A stretch of DNA of 37,977 nt from a virus. The stretch spans positions 1 through 37,977 of IMG/VR virus record IMGVR_UViG_3300044825_001142. One strand, given 5' to 3'. Below, piece by piece: positions 7,224 through 27,826 of this stretch (position 1 is its first letter; every line of letters starts with the position of its first letter). The position numbers and the translations under genes are program-made. The notes beneath the pieces were generated by a model. The model did not search any database, was not told where the DNA came from, and saw only the letters and a program-made list of their open reading frames with translations.

Positions 7224-7441
7224 GCCACCCTCCAGACCCTAACTCCCTCTCCTTCTTTCCTGCAGACAAATTTCCTAGAGAACCTTTTGCCCTGACGACG
7301 GTTGCAATTACAAAGGGTAGACATGGGCGTATTTGCCACCCAAAAGCTCTCTCCCACTTGTAGCTGCTCATAGGGGTAGTTGTGGCGCTTAATAGGTGCC
7401 GGTATAGGCACATCTTTATCTATCTCATACATCTGTTGCAT
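7220..7441 (-). CDS. Conserved small phage protein, first gene of the late block
   Basis: This 73-residue protein has an excellent AAGGAGG site before the ATG at 7441. It has the pattern YPYEQLQVGESF, then a basic cluster (RRQGKRFSRKFVCRKE), then GVRVWRVA at the end. I recognise this arrangement from a small uncharacterised family in many phages that looks like a compact nucleic-acid-binding or regulatory fold. As the first gene after the divergent control region it may be a late regulator. Function is not established. Confidence 0.75.
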   Translation of the reverse strand: MQQMYEIDKDVPIPAPIKRHNYPYEQLQVGESFWVANTPMSTLCNCNRRQGKRFSRKFVCRKEGEGVRVWRVA

Positions 7442-8086
7442 ACGTCCTCCTTAAACGATATAGGCGAATACTACACGAAATCTACGCATCGTAGAAAACA
7501 CGATTTTTCTTTGGGGCGGGGTTTTGTAGGAAAGAAAAAGGAAGGTGGGATGGGCTAACCGCCGCCAACGGGAGCGAGGGCTTAAATGACGCTTATAGGC
7601 CCCCATCCAGCCTATACACGCCCAATGAGACTTGACCTGTGGACTGCCATTGGGGGAAGTGCCCCACAAGCCTTACTTCGAAACAGCAAGCACAGTGTAA
7701 CAAAAATGGAAATTCCTTTGGGGCGGGGAGCGTAAAAGGTCGCGCTCCCGAGAGGGTCGTGGCCCATTCAATCGGGCAACAAAGCGGGACAGAATCGAAT
7801 CGAATCACGCAATGCGTAAACGTTTACGTTTCAGCGTAAACGCATTTATTCAATAGAGCCGTGTCCCAATTGGCCAGATATCCAATAAACGGTGGCGCGG
7901 GATTTAGGATCAATCCCCCGATCTCTCCGCATTGCACAATATCTACCCTTATATATATACCACTATATATAGTAAGAATCTATCCTATATGTAATAACGA
8001 TTAAAAAATAAAATGGCATATATGGTTCACGCTATAGACTTGTATACGTTAAACTTAGTATTCCTATTCACTAAAAGGGGGTTTCA
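7442..8086. promoter_or_regulatory. Divergent control region between late (-) and early (+) blocks
   Basis: There is no convincing gene in these 645 bases. The content is structured. TCTACG-CAT-CGTAGA is a dyad at 7481-7495, just upstream of the late ribosome site. TTTTTCTTT and AAAGAAAAA are inverted arms at 7504-7512 and 7531-7539. A 13-bp direct repeat CTTTGGGGCGGGG occurs at 7509-7521 and 7716-7728. A perfect 14-bp palindrome CGTAAACGTTTACG occurs at 7815-7828, with a further GCGTAAACG at 7834-7842. An AT-rich TATATA stretch lies at about 7948-8035. I could not fix a confident promoter in either direction. Confidence 0.55.
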
Positions 8087-8266
8087 ATGAAAGATCGATC
8101 AATCACTATCGTATTTGCATCAATGCTAGGTTTTTGCATGCTAGCCGTAATGGCATGCACTGTATGGATTCTTTTCACGGGTAGCGCTATAGAGCTAGCG
8201 TTAGGGATACTAGGTAGCGCTGTTAGCGTTTATATGTTTATTGATGTATCACGCGAAATCAAATAA
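8087..8266 (+). CDS. Small two-helix membrane protein, first early gene
   Basis: This is a 59-residue protein with hydrophobic segments at about residues 6-30 and 36-53 and a charged C-terminus (DVSREIK). The ATG at 8087 has AAAAGGGGG about eight bases upstream. It precedes the ArdC-like gene by 10 bases and lies in the same CTAG-rich segment. I do not recognise the family; it may alter the host membrane early in infection. Confidence 0.65.
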   Translation: MKDRSITIVFASMLGFCMLAVMACTVWILFTGSAIELALGILGSAVSVYMFIDVSREIK

Positions 8267-8276
8267 GGGGCTAATC

Positions 8277-9173
8277 ATGGATATTGCACAAGTCATTACA
8301 GATCGCATCATCACTGAGCTAGAAAAGGGCTCCGCGCCTTGGGTAAAGCCGTGGCGTGATGTTAAAAGCCGGAAACATAACGGACAGCCTTGGAACCCTG
8401 CTAGCGGGACGGTTTATCGTGGCGCTAATTGGACGTTTCTAACCCTTGTCGGCTCTACGTTTTCCAGTAACGCATGGATCACGTTTAAGCAAGCGCAAGC
8501 GCTAGGCGGTAACGTGAAAACAGGCGAAAAGGGGACGCCTATTGTTTTCTGGAAACCCCTAGCGATCAAGGATAAGACTAACCCGGATCAAGTAACGCAT
8601 GTGCCAATGCTAAAGCACTACTACGTTTTCAATCTGGATCAATGCGAAGACGTGACGCTACCCGGGCCTAAAGCTAATGAACCCGACTATAGCGCTGTAG
8701 ATTGGAACCCGTGCGACAAGGCCGAATCACTGATCGCCACGTTAAAGCTAGCAGGCGGCCTACATCATGGCGGCAATGAGGCATTTTTCCGGCCTAGCAC
8801 TGATGCAATCCAAATGCCCGAAAAGGGACAATTTGCTAGCAGGGAGAATTATTACGCGACTCTCTTGCATGAGGGAATCCATGCCACGGGCCATAAGTCT
8901 AGGCTAGACCGTGAAAAGGGTAAGCGCTTTGGGGATCATGCCTATGCTTACGAGGAATTGATCGCGGAGTTAGGCGCGGCAATGCTATGCGCTCATTGCG
9001 GCCTTGATGGGGACTTGCGCCATGCGGCCTATATTGAGTCATGGCTCAAGGCGCTGAAAGATGATAAGAAATTTATCATCAGCGCGGCCGGTAAAGCTCA
9101 AGCCGGTATGGATTGGCTCATCAATGGCGGTAAAAAGGCCGAATCCATCGAAGAGCTACCCCTAGCGGCCTAG
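8277..9173 (+). CDS. ArdC-like antirestriction protein (ssDNA-binding domain plus zincin-like metalloprotease)
   Basis: This 298-residue protein has the two domains of the ArdC family. The N-terminal ssDNA-binding domain shows ELEKGSAPWVKPW (14-26), NPASGTVYRGANW (40-52) and WITFKQAQALGG (67-78). The C-terminal metallopeptidase-like domain has HEGIH at 198-202 in a LLHEGIHATGH context and downstream acids E227 and E231. The start at 8277 is chosen over an ATG at 8241 because AATAAGGGG lies at ribosome distance and the domain begins here. ArdC proteins shield incoming DNA from restriction. An early role on entering DNA fits its place. Leu codons are often CTA, unlike later genes. Confidence 0.9.
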   Translation: MDIAQVITDRIITELEKGSAPWVKPWRDVKSRKHNGQPWNPASGTVYRGANWTFLTLVGSTFSSNAWITFKQAQALGGNVKTGEKGTPIVFWKPLAIKDKTNPDQVTHVPMLKHYYVFNLDQCEDVTLPGPKANEPDYSAVDWNPCDKAESLIATLKLAGGLHHGGNEAFFRPSTDAIQMPEKGQFASRENYYATLLHEGIHATGHKSRLDREKGKRFGDHAYAYEELIAELGAAMLCAHCGLDGDLRHAAYIESWLKALKDDKKFIISAAGKAQAGMDWLINGGKKAESIEELPLAA

Positions 9174-9816: not shown

Positions 9817-9949
9817 ATCGCCTAGGGTTAGGGCTAGGGCATGGGCTAGCGGCCCGTCTACGGCCTTATATGGCCCGTCCCCGTATATACCCGCCTGCTG
9901 TTGTGCAGCAGGGTTGCTGCTGGTCTGATTCTGGCCCGACTTCCAAAAA

Positions 9950-10055
9950 TAAAAGTGCATTTGCAAAAGCTCAGAAATTTAGGTTTTGAGTTTTTAGGCT
10001 CATAAGATTGCATTTGCCGTTTCAAAAAAATTTAGGTTTTAGCCTTTGATCGACA
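9950..10055. repeat. Imperfect 53-bp tandem direct repeat, two copies
   Basis: TGCATTTGC (9956-9964 and 10009-10017) and AAATTTAGGTTTT (9975-9987 and 10028-10040) recur in the same order. Both are offset by exactly 53 bases. The intervening bases are only partly conserved. The conserved blocks could be binding sites for an initiator or partition protein, like plasmid iterons. Confidence 0.75.
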
Positions 10056-10242
10056 CTCCGCAGGCTCATCCGTTGAGCTAGCCGACTGCGAGGCCCAAAG
10101 TTATCCACGGCCCAATCCGAACCTATAGGCTATATGTTTTGTAATCTAGGTAAAGGGCGTATATTAGACGTTCTATATTTACAATATATGTCATATAGTA
10201 TACGCCCGTAATAAGACGTATATAGGCTATATCCGGCCAGAG

Positions 10243-10274
10243 TTATCCACAAGTTATCCACAGAGTTATCCACA
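10243..10274 (+). promoter_or_regulatory. Three tandem DnaA boxes
   Basis: TTATCCACA occurs at 10243-10251, 10254-10262 and 10266-10274, all in the same orientation. The spacing is 11 and 12 bases, about one helical turn. Each matches the strong E. coli-type DnaA box exactly. A fourth copy with one change lies at 10101-10109. They could load host DnaA for phage replication, or titrate it away from the host origin. Confidence 0.9.
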
Positions 10275-10318
10275 GGGCTCCCACGTTCGGGAGGGGTAAA
10301 AATAATTCATACCCCCTC

Positions 10319-10348
10319 TTGACAATCCTAAAAATGTAGGAGTAAGGT
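10319..10348 (+). promoter_or_regulatory. Candidate sigma70 promoter for the second early transcript
   Basis: TTGACA at 10319-10324 is a perfect -35 element. TAAGGT (10343-10348) is a poor -10 at 18 bases. It lies between the DnaA boxes and the first gene at 10397. A dyad GTGTA-TACGTT-TACAC (10356-10371) sits immediately downstream, where an operator would block initiation or clearance. Confidence 0.5.
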
Positions 10349-10355
10349 TCATAGC

Positions 10356-10371
10356 GTGTATACGTTTACAC
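10356..10371. promoter_or_regulatory. Candidate operator dyad
   Basis: GTGTA and TACAC form perfect 5-bp inverted arms around TACGTT. The 8-mer ACGTTTAC inside it also occurs in the 14-bp palindrome at 7815-7828 in the divergent control region. One early regulator might act at both sites. The regulator is not identified. Confidence 0.4.
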
Positions 10372-10396
10372 ATCCTAATGTGAAAGGGGAAACACC

Positions 10397-10582
10397 ATGA
10401 ATGTACAGCGTGAATACAGTATCCAAGAGGCGATGGACATAGCACTGCAAAGCCTTGTAGTGGAGCGTCAGTTAGTTGATCGGCTCTATCGCATTAGGCA
10501 AGAGGCCAAGGAGGTAGCAGACCTACTTACCAAGGCCAAGGAGCGCAGGCTGCAGCTAGATCAAGAAGCACGTTTAGACTAA
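10397..10582 (+). CDS. Small coiled-coil-like hypothetical protein
   Basis: This 61-residue protein is almost wholly helical and charged, with heptad-like spacing (VVERQLVDRLYRIRQEAKEV). GAAAGGGG lies about eight bases before the ATG. It is the first gene after the putative origin and promoter. It could be a small dimeric regulator or adaptor; no motif is recognised. Confidence 0.65.
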   Translation: MNVQREYSIQEAMDIALQSLVVERQLVDRLYRIRQEAKEVADLLTKAKERRLQLDQEARLD

Positions 10583-11391: not shown

Positions 11392-11469
11392 ATGGGCGAT
11401 TTACTGCACTTTCTGGTTTTCATAGCAGTTATCGTGGCTATCGGCATTTACATAGGCTACAAGGAATGA
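11392..11469 (+). CDS. 25-residue single-pass membrane micropeptide
   Basis: The frame opens MGDLLHFLVFIAVIVAIGIY and ends IGYKE. The ATG starts directly after the previous stop and has an excellent ACGGAGG site five bases upstream. One transmembrane helix makes up nearly the whole product. The strong ribosome site supports real translation. It parallels the two membrane micropeptides on the other strand at 6893-7059. Confidence 0.6.
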   Translation: MGDLLHFLVFIAVIVAIGIYIGYKE

Positions 11470-11474
11470 ACGAC

Positions 11475-12173
11475 ATGACACCAATCGTAATTTGCACCAA
11501 GGGCAGCAAGGCAATAAATGTGCTGCTTGCTAGCATTGAGCAGTATGTACCCCGGGAGGTTCAGGTCTATGTCTACGGAAACTTTGACAACCTGATGTCT
11601 TGGGAGTTTATAAAGTGGCTTGGCGATAACGACAAAAAGACCTTTGGCGAGAGCTTTAATTACGCCACCAACCAAGTCTGGCTGGATGGCCACGAAACTC
11701 TAATCATGGCCAATGATGACATTGTGCTAAACCCTGACAGCTATTGGCTGCTCACCCATGATCGGGTGCTGCTACGTCAGCAGGGGCACAAGGTGGGCTT
11801 TGTCTCAGCCCGTAGCAACATGGCCAGCTTGCCTCAGAACGTGCGCCATAAACAAGAAAACGACACGTGGAATGGCATGAAGTGGGCCAGTGAAGACACG
11901 CTCATGCAGGTGGAATGGACTGCGCCACTCTTTGCTAGTGTCGATAAAGAGGGTTACCCGGGCTTTCCTCCGACTAATTTTTTTAGCGATAACGTGGCCT
12001 GTCACGATATGAGTTGTGAAGGATTCAAACACTTTTTATCAAGAAGTTACGTTTCTCACGTTGGCAGTAGCACTATAGGTAGAGGCATGGGTGCAGATAG
12101 CAAAAACTACATGGAGGCAGAGGATTGGATTAAAACAAATAGGCCACTGTTGCATAAACGATATTTTCAGTAG
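11475..12173 (+). CDS. Glycosyltransferase-like protein (GT-A type)
   Basis: The 232-residue protein begins MTPIVICTKGSKAINVLLAS, a typical first strand and helix of a GT-A nucleotide-sugar domain. Acidic NDD at 80-82 (LIMANDDIVLNPDSY) sits where the metal-binding DxD lies. The start at 11475 is preferred because AAGGA lies nine bases upstream; 11466 is an alternative, and the frame stays open farther up but without support. It probably transfers a sugar to DNA, a virion protein or host surface sugar. The acceptor is unknown. Confidence 0.7.
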   Translation: MTPIVICTKGSKAINVLLASIEQYVPREVQVYVYGNFDNLMSWEFIKWLGDNDKKTFGESFNYATNQVWLDGHETLIMANDDIVLNPDSYWLLTHDRVLLRQQGHKVGFVSARSNMASLPQNVRHKQENDTWNGMKWASEDTLMQVEWTAPLFASVDKEGYPGFPPTNFFSDNVACHDMSCEGFKHFLSRSYVSHVGSSTIGRGMGADSKNYMEAEDWIKTNRPLLHKRYFQ

Positions 12174-13122: not shown

Positions 13123-13959
13123 ATGAGTAATGTAGTGAATCTACCTAAGAGTGATGTCGCTGTTATCGATCCAGCGATCATTGAATCAATCGTAACCAAA
13201 GGGGACTTGTCGGGGCTAAACCAAGTTCAGAAGGTGCAGTATTACAACTACCGCTGCAAGCAGATTGGCCTAGACCCTAGCGCCAAACCGTTTGACCTGC
13301 TGAACCTTAGCGGAAAGCAGGTGCTATATGCCAATGCGGGAGCCACGCAACAACTCTGTAACCTCCACAAATTGTCAACTCAAATTACGAATAAAGAACG
13401 GGTCGATGATATTTACGTTGTCTCAGTCAGAGTTACCGGGGCTGATGGACGCTCTAGTGAAAATCAAGGGGCTGTTAGCATCGGAAACCTTAGAGGGGAT
13501 GCCCTTGCTAACGCAGTGCTCAAATGCACTACCAAAGCAATACGCCGATCAGTGCTTGCTCATTGTGGACTTGGCATGCTCGACGAAACCGAAGTCGAAA
13601 CAATCCCAAATGCCCATAAGGAAAGTATCGTAATTCCTACCGATGAACCCATGCCCACATTAGTCGATGAACCGGCTGGTGATTGGCCATTGATGGTGCC
13701 CGGGACTGATGATCCGTATTCGTTTCATGCAGACGCAGATAAGTGGACTGACGCTTTCCTGACGATGGTGGACAGAATTAGAGATAGCGGCAAGCTACCG
13801 GCTGATGAGAAGTCGTATAAGCTGGGCGAGCTTGAAAAGTGTAACCGTGGAATGTTTACAAAGGTGCGTGATTCTTCATCTGGGCTCTACGAAATCCTTA
13901 CCAATGGCATAGGATCAGCCAGAGGCGAGATCAACAAGGCGATAGCTGGAAAAAAGTAA
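13123..13959 (+). CDS. Putative single-strand annealing protein, partner of the exonuclease
   Basis: This is a 278-residue protein. The conserved-looking core runs from YNYRCKQIGLDPSAKPFDLL (about 43-62) to LKCTTKAIRRSVLAHCGLGM (about 153-172). The KAxRRxxLxxCGLGxLDExE pattern recalls RecT/Erf-type phage annealing proteins. The C-terminal part is variable and acidic. Its place directly after the YqaJ-type nuclease and before an SSB-tailed protein supports a recombination role: annealing strands to make concatemers or repair ends. I could not assign one superfamily by eye. Confidence 0.72.
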   Translation: MSNVVNLPKSDVAVIDPAIIESIVTKGDLSGLNQVQKVQYYNYRCKQIGLDPSAKPFDLLNLSGKQVLYANAGATQQLCNLHKLSTQITNKERVDDIYVVSVRVTGADGRSSENQGAVSIGNLRGDALANAVLKCTTKAIRRSVLAHCGLGMLDETEVETIPNAHKESIVIPTDEPMPTLVDEPAGDWPLMVPGTDDPYSFHADADKWTDAFLTMVDRIRDSGKLPADEKSYKLGELEKCNRGMFTKVRDSSSGLYEILTNGIGSARGEINKAIAGKK

Positions 13960-14183: not shown

Positions 14184-14462
14184 ATGGCTTATCAAGAACG
14201 ACAGGCAGGCACCGGGGTATTGTTTACTAATACAAAAAAGGCCGAAGGCACAGCAGGCCCGGATTGGAAGGGTGAATTAAAACTTGAACGTGATTACGCT
14301 GCCGGTGAGATCATCAAGTTAGCAGCGTGGACTAAGCAATCTGCCAAGGGGCCGCTTATCAGCCTCAAGGAAGATAACTGGAAGCCCGATCCGAATTACA
14401 AGCAGAACGTGCAGCCAGTTCCTAGCAAGTCGCTCGATGGCGACGATGATGTGCCTTTTTAA
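14184..14462 (+). CDS. Small SSB-like protein with acidic DDDVPF tail
   Basis: This is a 92-residue protein with a compact beta-rich N-terminal region (GVLFTNTKK, WKGELKL, PLISLKEDNW) that could be an OB-like fold. A flexible linker leads to the end GDDDVPF. That end is the hallmark tip of bacterial single-stranded DNA-binding proteins, through which SSB recruits replication and repair enzymes. It is shorter than cellular SSB (about 170). It follows the exonuclease, annealing and HTH genes. It likely binds ssDNA and recruits host proteins. Confidence 0.75.
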   Translation: MAYQERQAGTGVLFTNTKKAEGTAGPDWKGELKLERDYAAGEIIKLAAWTKQSAKGPLISLKEDNWKPDPNYKQNVQPVPSKSLDGDDDVPF

Positions 14463-14473
14463 AGGGGAAAACT

Positions 14474-14626
14474 ATGAAAAAGATCGTAGCTGCAGTTTTT
14501 GGTTTGACGTTTGCAACAGCAGTTTATGCACAGTGCCGGACACACACAATTACGACTAGCGATGGTCGAATGGTGATTTGTACGACATGTTGTTATGGCG
14601 GTAACTGCACGACAAACTGCTTTTAA
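14474..14626 (+). CDS. Secreted small cysteine-rich peptide
   Basis: The 50-residue precursor has a classical Sec signal (MKKIVAAVFGLTFATAVYA, then cleavage before QC). The mature peptide of about 31 residues has six cysteines (C21, C36, C39, C40, C45, C49), including CTTCC and NCTTNCF. AAAGGGG precedes the ATG. The stop overlaps the next start by TAATG. I recall similar CRTHT / TTCC peptides in other environmental phage genomes, without known function. Export to the periplasm and three disulfides are likely. Confidence 0.75.
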   Translation: MKKIVAAVFGLTFATAVYAQCRTHTITTSDGRMVICTTCCYGGNCTTNCF

Positions 14627-14988
14627 TGGGTAAGCTACAGCGTCAGCGCGGTGCTCAGTATGAGCGCGATATAGTCAATGATCTGTACATGATTCTTGGC
14701 TATAAGACACGCAGAAACCTAGTGCAGTATCAGGAAAGCGGAGAAGGCGACATTATCCTTGATCGTTTCATTATCGAGTGTAAGCGCCGACGCAAGATAG
14801 CTGTCTATGAGTTTATGGAGCAGGCAGAGGCATCATGTAAGGAAGGGCAGACTCCAATCGTAGTAATGCGGGCTGATGGCGAGAAATCGCTAGCATTAGT
14901 GCGATGGGAAGACATGTTGAAGTTTTTGGGTAACGAATTACCCCCCGCACAGCCAGAAGTGCATCCATCCCCCAAGGATGGTGATTAG
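14626..14988 (+). CDS. PD-(D/E)XK nuclease, Holliday-junction-resolvase-like
   Basis: This 120-residue protein has a minimal PD-(D/E)XK core: E13 in GAQYERDIVNDL, D42 in SGEGDIILD, and E51-x-K53 in FIIECKRRR, followed by a helix with EFMEQAEA. Size and order match archaeal Hjc-type or small phage resolvases and nickases. The C-terminus is Pro-rich. With the exonuclease and annealing protein it would complete a recombination set, resolving branched DNA before packaging. Confidence 0.78.
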   Translation: MGKLQRQRGAQYERDIVNDLYMILGYKTRRNLVQYQESGEGDIILDRFIIECKRRRKIAVYEFMEQAEASCKEGQTPIVVMRADGEKSLALVRWEDMLKFLGNELPPAQPEVHPSPKDGD

Positions 14989-25996: not shown

Positions 25997-26448
25997 TATG
26001 CGCTCCCCTCTCTGCGCGGCCCCAGAGCAAAAGTGACTTGATATTTGCCATTTCGTGTTTCTTGCACCTTGTAGCCCATGTTTGGTCTAGGAGGATTCTT
26101 GGCTATTTCACGGAATATCTGTAAAAATGATGGTTGACTAAACTGAGTTACTAAAACATCAAACCCAAGAGCATAGGCAACCTCAGTAAATCTCTTGCTG
26201 CTTTCAAGAAAGTTTTGGGCAGTATCGGCGTTGAGCGCTCGCATGTACCCATTACGGCCTCTTCCCTTGTCAATAATAAATAAGGTGTTCCCATAGACCA
26301 TGTGCGTCACTCGCGGGTCAGACATTTCCGCAGTCAAACGCACTGTAAGTTCTTTGGTGTCGTAGGGTGAGTCAGTTTGGAAGCCAGCAATACGGATAAT
26401 GTCTCCGATTTTTAATTGCTGCTCCTTGCTATCGACTGCCTGCATCAC
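25996..26448 (-). CDS. GNAT-like protein preceding the ejection proteins
   Basis: This is a 150-residue protein with the beta-alpha order of a GNAT fold: HMVYGNTLFIIDKG strands, a helix through AQNFLESSKRFTEVAYALGF, DVLVTQF, then FLQIFREIAKN and a final beta pair (GYKVQET, YQVTFALG). The canonical acetyl-CoA R/Q-x-x-G-x-G/A loop is not obvious. A GNAT-like protein in front of the ejection genes also occurs in T7 (gp13), so a virion-assembly role is the conservative reading. ATGA coupling to a ketosynthase and ACP raises the alternative of an acyltransferase. Confidence 0.55.
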   Translation of the reverse strand: MMQAVDSKEQQLKIGDIIRIAGFQTDSPYDTKELTVRLTAEMSDPRVTHMVYGNTLFIIDKGRGRNGYMRALNADTAQNFLESSKRFTEVAYALGFDVLVTQFSQPSFLQIFREIAKNPPRPNMGYKVQETRNGKYQVTFALGPRREGSA

Positions 26449-27545
26449 GCCCCCATAGGCTTAAAGACAGCGGCTGAGTAGATATTGCCCATGCCCGCTG
26501 CCAAACTCAAAACTAGCCCCTTGGGTGCCTCAACCGGGGCCGACAGAAATTGATGGTCAGTCTCGGTGCGATTGGGTATTTCAGGCACAAACCCATTTAC
26601 CATATTTTCCATCAGTAATAGCGTTTCTAGCAACCCCGACGCACCCATTGTGTGCCCTATTTTTGGTTTAAAACTGGTGGCTACAAACCGATCATTTAGG
26701 CCAGCCAGCGCGGCCCTCTCAGCCTCATTATTTGACCTTGTGCCGGTGCCATGAGTCTTGACTACGGCTATGTCATCCGGGTCGATTTGACCGTTTTTAA
26801 GGCATCCGGCCATAGCTTTCTTAAATCCCTCGCCTGCGGCGTTTTGGCCAATGGCATTGGTTGAAACCTCTGAGCTATTCCATGCTTGTTGCAGCGCACC
26901 AATCGTGTTTTCTTGGGGAGCGTCCTCAAACACCGCCAAAACGGCACCCTGTCCAACATGAAAACCGTAGTTTTTGCTGTCAAAAGCGCTTGGCAGCACC
27001 CCGTTTTCCTCTTCTTGAGGACTCAAAATAGCCTTGGCCTCGCCAAAAAACTCTAAAACAGAGTTAGAAACAGCGTCTTCAACTCCCAAAACCACCACTC
27101 GATCAAAACCGTAGTGGGTCATCAGAGTCTGTACGTCGAACATGACCTTGAGGCTAGAGGCGCAGGCAGAAGCGTCCGTTTGCACTAGGTCAGTAATACC
27201 CATCTGCTGCGCTATGCGACCTGCATACACCTGAGTCAACGTAAATGGCAGAAACTTGTAAACGTATGAAAGTTGGTTGTTTTTAATCTTGCGCGGATTG
27301 ATACCGGCAAAGTGTTGATTGCCTCCAGCTAGGACAAACGCCTGCTTAGTCTTAGGGTTTTCCCTAATATAAGAAATTATTTGGGGGGTGAGCACCATTT
27401 CCGCTAGCTTGTGAGGCGCATAGGCCAGCCCGGAGTCTTTTCTGGCGTATGTAGCGGGGAAAAAATGGCATTTTTGAGGGAAAAGTAGGTCATTAAATAG
27501 CGTTTTCTCCTCGGTAAACGCTACTTTGTAATGGTTGATAAACAT
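26445..27545 (-). CDS. Beta-ketoacyl-ACP synthase (KAS I/II, FabF-like)
   Basis: This is a 366-residue thiolase-fold enzyme with all catalytic residues of KAS I/II. Cys128 is in TDASACASSLKVM, His265 in VVKTHGTGTRSNNEAE, and Lys293 and His298 in SFKPKIGHTMGASG. The usual reaction condenses an acyl chain with malonyl-ACP. It is shorter than FabF (about 410), mainly at the N-terminus, which is atypical (MFINHYKVAFTEEKTLF). It follows the ACP gene by TAATG and overlaps the GNAT-like gene by ATGA. No reductase or dehydratase is present, so it must use host intermediates. Clearly a ketosynthase; substrate unknown. Confidence 0.93.
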   Translation of the reverse strand: MFINHYKVAFTEEKTLFNDLLFPQKCHFFPATYARKDSGLAYAPHKLAEMVLTPQIISYIRENPKTKQAFVLAGGNQHFAGINPRKIKNNQLSYVYKFLPFTLTQVYAGRIAQQMGITDLVQTDASACASSLKVMFDVQTLMTHYGFDRVVVLGVEDAVSNSVLEFFGEAKAILSPQEEENGVLPSAFDSKNYGFHVGQGAVLAVFEDAPQENTIGALQQAWNSSEVSTNAIGQNAAGEGFKKAMAGCLKNGQIDPDDIAVVKTHGTGTRSNNEAERAALAGLNDRFVATSFKPKIGHTMGASGLLETLLLMENMVNGFVPEIPNRTETDHQFLSAPVEAPKGLVLSLAAGMGNIYSAAVFKPMGA

Positions 27546-27826
27546 TATTTGACGCTGGCTAAAGCGGTTTCAACCGATTCAGGCTCTTTGGTCTTGTGTT
27601 GATCGACAAAAGCCTTTAATTCAGCCGGAGTCTTGACCTGCATAGTCTTGCCAATCTCCTCCGGTATGCCGTAGATGTCGCACATGTACAAAGCAATGAT
27701 TAGCAGGTCTAGGCTGTCCACGTTCATCTCTTCAAACGTGCCATCCCACGTTGGCGGCGCAAGCGCCTCTGAGTGCAAAGGCTTGGCCAGCTTGCCAACC
27801 TCATGCAGCAACTCTAAAAAGTCCAT
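27545..27826 (-). CDS. Acyl carrier protein
   Basis: This is a 93-residue acidic helical protein with the phosphopantetheine attachment site NVDSLDLL (Ser38). Helix II follows (DLLIIALYMCDIYGI) and then an EEIGKTMQVKTPAELKAFVDQ segment matching ACP helices III and IV. The start at 27826 has the ATAAGGGGCTAAAT leader. The protein ends with a 15-residue extension. It directly precedes and is coupled to the ketosynthase, the likely partner. A host phosphopantetheinyl transferase would be needed; none is seen here. Confidence 0.9.
   Translation of the reverse strand: MDFLELLHEVGKLAKPLHSEALAPPTWDGTFEEMNVDSLDLLIIALYMCDIYGIPEEIGKTMQVKTPAELKAFVDQHKTKEPESVETALASVK

Follow-up and report, generated by a model that had tools for sequence, protein, structure and literature searches.

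A conserved DnaA-box cassette as a candidate replication origin in a family of tailed phages without recognisable replisome genes

The window, the whole 37,977-base virus record that was analysed, has ends sharing an exact 86-bp overlap, indicating that the record closes as a circle. On its plus strand, an early operon runs from 10397 to approximately 16.1 kb, and a non-coding cassette of DnaA boxes and an AT-rich core lies directly 5′ of the early promoter. The features of this region are as follows.

8274–9173, plus strand: ArdC-type antirestriction protein, 5′ of the cassette
10101–10109, plus strand: lone DnaA box TTATCCACG, one mismatch, 5′ of the array
10125–10235, no strand: AT-rich non-coding core of type A, a probable unwinding region judged by conservation and low stability
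10155–10207: imperfect inverted repeat within the core, arms 10155–10179 and 10183–10207
10243–10251, plus strand: DnaA box 1 of the array, perfect TTATCCACA
10254–10262, plus strand: DnaA box 2 of the array, perfect TTATCCACA
10266–10274, plus strand: DnaA box 3 of the array, perfect TTATCCACA
10319–10348, plus strand: early promoter, TTGACA, 18-nt spacer, weak −10 TAAGGT
10397–10582, plus strand: first early gene, 61-aa coiled-coil protein, predicted single helix
12210–13112, plus strand: YqaJ/RecE-type exonuclease
13123–13959, plus strand: Rad52-type single-strand annealing protein, by a weak Pfam match and predicted fold
14184–14462, plus strand: single-strand DNA-binding protein (SSB), by a weak PHROG match
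14626–14988, plus strand: PDDEXK/Holliday-junction-resolvase-like nuclease

The early operon thus holds a recombination module in which a YqaJ/RecE exonuclease, an annealing protein and an SSB are adjacent, the SSB match being weak. The Pfam match behind the Rad52 assignment (E 0.0021) falls below the cut-off, and a Rad52-type structure predicted with moderate confidence had human RAD52 as its best PDB matches. Other early-operon products are small proteins, two glycosyltransferase-like proteins and a winged-helix protein. Elsewhere, amid the virion genes, the minus strand encodes a beta-ketoacyl-synthase-like protein (26445–27545; both Pfam halves above the cut-off), adjoined by a protein of 93 aa whose DSLD motif is acyl-carrier-like (27545–27826, minus strand), a pair that is unusual for a phage.

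The three boxes of the array start at 10243, 10254 and 10266, giving start-to-start distances of 11 and 12 bp, and no other perfect box occurs in the whole 38-kb record. First-order shuffling of the window yielded 0.27 perfect boxes per genome and a triple in 0 of 300 shuffles, and a rough analytic estimate put the chance expectation of a triple perfect array at about 6e-9. One-mismatch boxes were near chance across the window (15 in total versus 8.4 expected); at the position of the lone TTATCCACG box, close relatives carry perfect TTATCCACA. Clusters of multiple high-affinity DnaA boxes, as expected of an oriC-like origin, were found both in the window and in its relatives. The DnaA-trio (BUS) signature was absent from the window, with at most one trio adjoining any box, and the window cassette had no IHF consensus site. 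Given that 15% of bacterial genomes also have no trio by the published definition (PMC8287927), the missing trio lowers the case for an oriC-like class without excluding it.

Between the lone box and the array lies the AT-rich core. Within it, positions 10132–10231 rank second among the 100-bp sites of the window genome for low stability, so that a conserved AT-rich region predicted to open easily sits beside the boxes. The arms of its inverted repeat are 25 nt long, 76% complementary and separated by 3 nt. Three perfect boxes one helical turn apart, a fourth near-perfect box and an AT-rich region with inverted arms had all been claimed in a preliminary description of this DNA, and each is borne out here. 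As a single strand, the core folded unremarkably (z −1.5); no Rfam match in the cassette pointed to an origin RNA, and no consensus promoter reading into the core was found. Stability is lowest at 7948, where the 100-bp minimum of the window falls in another non-coding region of about 650 bp, 7441–8087, between the divergent late and early genes, and many relatives have comparable stability minima approximately 2–3 kb 5′ of the cassette. This second region may be a promoter hub, a packaging site or a second origin candidate.

No polymerase, helicase, primase, helicase loader or Rep protein was detected among the window proteins scanned against PHROGs and Pfam, and a six-frame search of the window and 12 long relatives gave no match to DnaB_C, PolA, IstB, the DnaG zinc ribbon, Rep_3 or Phage_rep_O. 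The earlier statement that the genome has no recognisable replisome gene thus holds for the scanned proteins and for these six replication families; the searches addressed named families, which a divergent initiator could escape. Accordingly, the window encodes neither the nearby Rep initiator of an iteron origin nor the O-like initiator and P/DnaC-like loader of a lambda-type origin. A hidden initiator among the small early genes was considered and rejected. The first early protein, which is uncharacterised and present in nearly all relatives, is predicted to be a plain single helix; a 237-aa early protein (11460–12173) is missing from some box-bearing relatives; and no early gene among the relatives compared co-varied with core type. 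GC skew, which had been proposed as a check, gave a divided answer: the raw profile of the window follows gene direction, and skew at four-fold sites looked supportive in the window alone but localised no origin across 11 genomes.

To place the cassette in its family, which is known mainly from metagenomes, more than 100 loci were gathered from viral contigs via yqaJ and rad52, of which 46 that were non-redundant and extended 2.7 kb or more 5′ of yqaJ were retained. Perfect boxes occurred 5′ of yqaJ in 39 of these 46 relatives, in clusters of 2 to 6 in 29 loci. Across the set, 109 boxes lay on the early-operon strand versus 1 on the other, and neighbouring boxes were spaced by 11–12 bp in 42 of 50 pairs and by 20–22 bp in the other 8. 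Furthermore, a perfect lone box stood 133–279 bp 5′ of the next box in 18 relatives, the box flanks extended the consensus to A(G/C)TTATCCACAG, and 10 of 12 long relatives had almost all the perfect boxes of their genomes at the cassette position. A further scan added more relatives that agree, several with terminases 82–90% identical to that of the window, and three additional relatives without boxes. A search of genome contigs for the host returned a single match, a phage-sized contig in a Balneolaceae MAG, which is not proof of the host.

The core is itself under selection. Among relatives with a type-A core, this non-coding DNA is 84–91% identical versus 76% for yqaJ DNA, ArdC is 67–73% identical where present, and the flank 5′ of the cassette is mostly unalignable. 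In type-B relatives at equal yqaJ distance, the core is unrelated to type A, and the flanking boxes are kept on both sides.

In most relatives the array stands just 5′ of a TTGACA promoter, which in several of them reads TTGACA-N16-TATAAT; the window's own promoter was omitted by a strict scan because its −10 element is weak. DnaA stimulates the lambda pR promoter, and the boxes could likewise place the early promoter under DnaA control, or serve to titrate DnaA and so stop host initiation, in place of forming an origin, with replication starting elsewhere. The promoter-proximal position speaks for such a role. However, the distance from array to −35 varies from 6 to 77 bp among relatives with no single helical phase. 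Both regulation and titration would also leave unexplained the conservation of the core that the lone box and array flank, and the means by which a phage lacking replisome genes copies its DNA. We consider this account quite unlikely.

Relatives that lack the boxes or carry other DNA in place of the cassette bear on its function from both directions. In one contig (L126/L251; G013), which has the yqaJ, rad52 and SSB of the window's family and no DnaA box, the DNA 5′ of yqaJ encodes an O-like initiator (phrog_678, E 3.4e-14), a DnaG-type zinc finger below the cut-off and a DnaB helicase (E 6.6e-21). These replication genes belong to another phage lineage, where box clusters occurred in 0 of 80 loci and where 12 long records were without the window's terminase. 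A close relative of this contig, L124, has three boxes and no O-like, primase or DnaB gene. The pattern fits a natural replacement of an initiation cassette by an O-like/primase/DnaB module; since this is a single metagenomic contig carrying two annealing proteins, misassembly has to be excluded.

On the other side, 7 of the 46 lineages had no perfect box, and most of these also had no known replisome gene. G011 and G012 are without a perfect box anywhere in the record, and the L049 record (G011) gave no DnaB, PolA, IstB, DnaG, Rep_3 or O match. L026 and L049 carry a different cassette without boxes; at its position (3060–3180 in L026, the same coordinates in L049) there is a strong inverted repeat, GGGTTTAAGT...ACTTAAGCCC, with a run of eight T's after it, for which L026 gave no Rfam match. 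In L028, the 37-bp array is cleanly missing, while the core and promoter are kept as in L022. That retention, the range of box number from 0 to 6, the box-less alternative cassette and the existence of RNA-based phage origins (PMC7157519) would all suit a core that is itself the actual origin, fired by a phage factor that escaped recognition or by a ColE1-like RNA primer of the kind proposed for RepA-less mycobacterial prophages, with the boxes as an optional aid to DnaB loading. Such an origin is nevertheless unlikely, given the cassette's unremarkable fold, its want of an Rfam match and of a promoter into the core, and the finding that no gene tracks core type and that unrelated cores share only the DnaA boxes.

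Box arrays also occur outside the family. Triple perfect arrays were present in at least 118 viral contigs (L128–L245), 98 of them outside long ORFs, and most of these contigs were not of the window's family; the neighbours of the unrelated arrays were mostly terminases, with few known replication families. Two microvirus records of approximately 5.6 kb (PQ006781 and MZ089785) have DnaA-box arrays that lie under the gene annotated as the replication initiator, near 3.8 kb. Berlinvirus (T7-like) and T5-like records likewise carry, in their terminal non-coding DNA, tandem TTATCCACA-type boxes spaced by 11–12 bp, as listed here.

PV245933 (L246): Berlinvirus or T5-like record, tandem terminal boxes
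MK685668 (L332): Berlinvirus or T5-like record, tandem terminal boxes
MZ079855 (L331): Berlinvirus or T5-like record, tandem terminal boxes

T5-like and T7-like phages replicate with their own proteins, and replisome genes were present in the nasanit record. Because self-replicating phages of these groups carry box arrays, an array alone is no proof of an origin. The injection stop region of T5 has been described with repeats, inverted repeats, palindromes and DnaA boxes (PMC13250531), and boxes and repeats of the cassette might similarly make DNA entry pause once the first (antirestriction) genes are inside. The terminal arrays are in keeping with such a signal, as is the position of the cassette, with ArdC and small genes on one side and the early operon on the other. 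A fixed stop would, however, fail if the ends are permuted, and the window record closes as a circle; moreover, two-step entry is not known for short-tailed-type phages such as this one, and a stop signal does not explain replacement by DnaB genes. This makes an injection stop very unlikely.

Docking sites for DnaA at a fixed place, in phages without DNA-copying genes, indicate that these phages probably borrow the host initiator. With moderate confidence, we therefore propose that segment 10101–10274 acts as a DnaA-recruiting replication origin that feeds recombination-dependent replication. DnaA would bind the lone box and the phased array flanking the core, and the core would open, perhaps with help from transcription starting at the neighbouring early promoter. 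The host's DnaB, primase and DNA polymerase III would then load and run the first (theta) rounds, whose products the phage exonuclease, Rad52-type protein, SSB and nuclease may convert to concatemers for packaging. Recruitment of host DnaA had been suggested in the preliminary description, which missed that the element occurs across the family, immediately precedes the early promoter and comes with a complete annealing-recombination module. The suggestion is strengthened because the boxes are conserved across the family, strand-biased and phased, the core is selected and the cassette was apparently swapped once. It is weakened by the box-less lineages without a replisome, by L028, by the missing DnaA-trio, by the skew results, by the boxes of self-replicating phages and by the dependence of the swap on a single contig.

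A broader proposal, which we put forward tentatively and at somewhat less than even chance, is that the members of this widespread tailed-phage family encode neither an initiator nor a loader, helicase, primase or polymerase and start replication only through a DnaA-capturing cis element, whose core is exchanged between fixed boxes and was once exchanged for an O-like/primase/DnaB module. To our knowledge, well-studied tailed phages supply at least an initiator or a helicase loader to divert the host replisome, and in the open-access literature we found no described phage origin dependent on host DnaA alone. Elements of this class have precedents; what would be new is that one serves as the apparent sole determinant of initiation in a tailed-phage family. 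If true, a DnaA-only family would reveal how little a virus needs, tie phage replication to the host's own initiation control, offer natural minimal DnaA origins with several core types and 0–6 boxes for testing origin features, and hint at how other polymerase-less metagenomic phages replicate.

Several known systems share parts of this arrangement. P1 oriR has DnaA-box arrays on both sides and RK2 has four orientation-dependent boxes, both needing Rep (PMC4980987). The cassette resembles P1 oriR, RK2 oriV and other iteron origins in its fixed-orientation boxes beside an AT-rich region, whereas iteron plasmids need Rep and iterons, and the window gave neither Rep_3 nor any other initiator. 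It resembles a lambda-type O/P origin in lying near an early promoter and, under the proposed model, in using a host replisome together with recombination proteins; unlike lambda, the window has no detected O- or P-like gene, such genes occurring only in the recombinant L251. With the T5 stop region and the terminal repeats of T5-like phages and Berlinvirus it shares tandem TTATCCACA-type boxes in non-coding DNA, although those phages encode their own replisome. RepA-less mycobacteriophage prophages, which have RNA-based origins, are similar in having a phage replication region without Rep, but their origins need a non-coding RNA and the text of that paper reports no DnaA boxes (PMC7157519). 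In the staphylococcal phage 80alpha, an annealing protein (Sak) and SSB support replication and concatemers (PMC5499656); 80alpha, unlike the window, has genes for an initiator and a helicase loader as well, and the annealing protein and SSB are common to both. Compared with E. coli-type oriC, the cassette differs in being on a phage, in its tandem same-strand array at 11–12 bp with one lone box, and in having no detected DnaA-trio or IHF consensus site. It is like oriC in that perfect boxes of the R type, their flanks also matching (A[G/C]TTATCCACAG), surround an AT-rich region of low stability and, in the model proposed here, in needing host DnaA to start.
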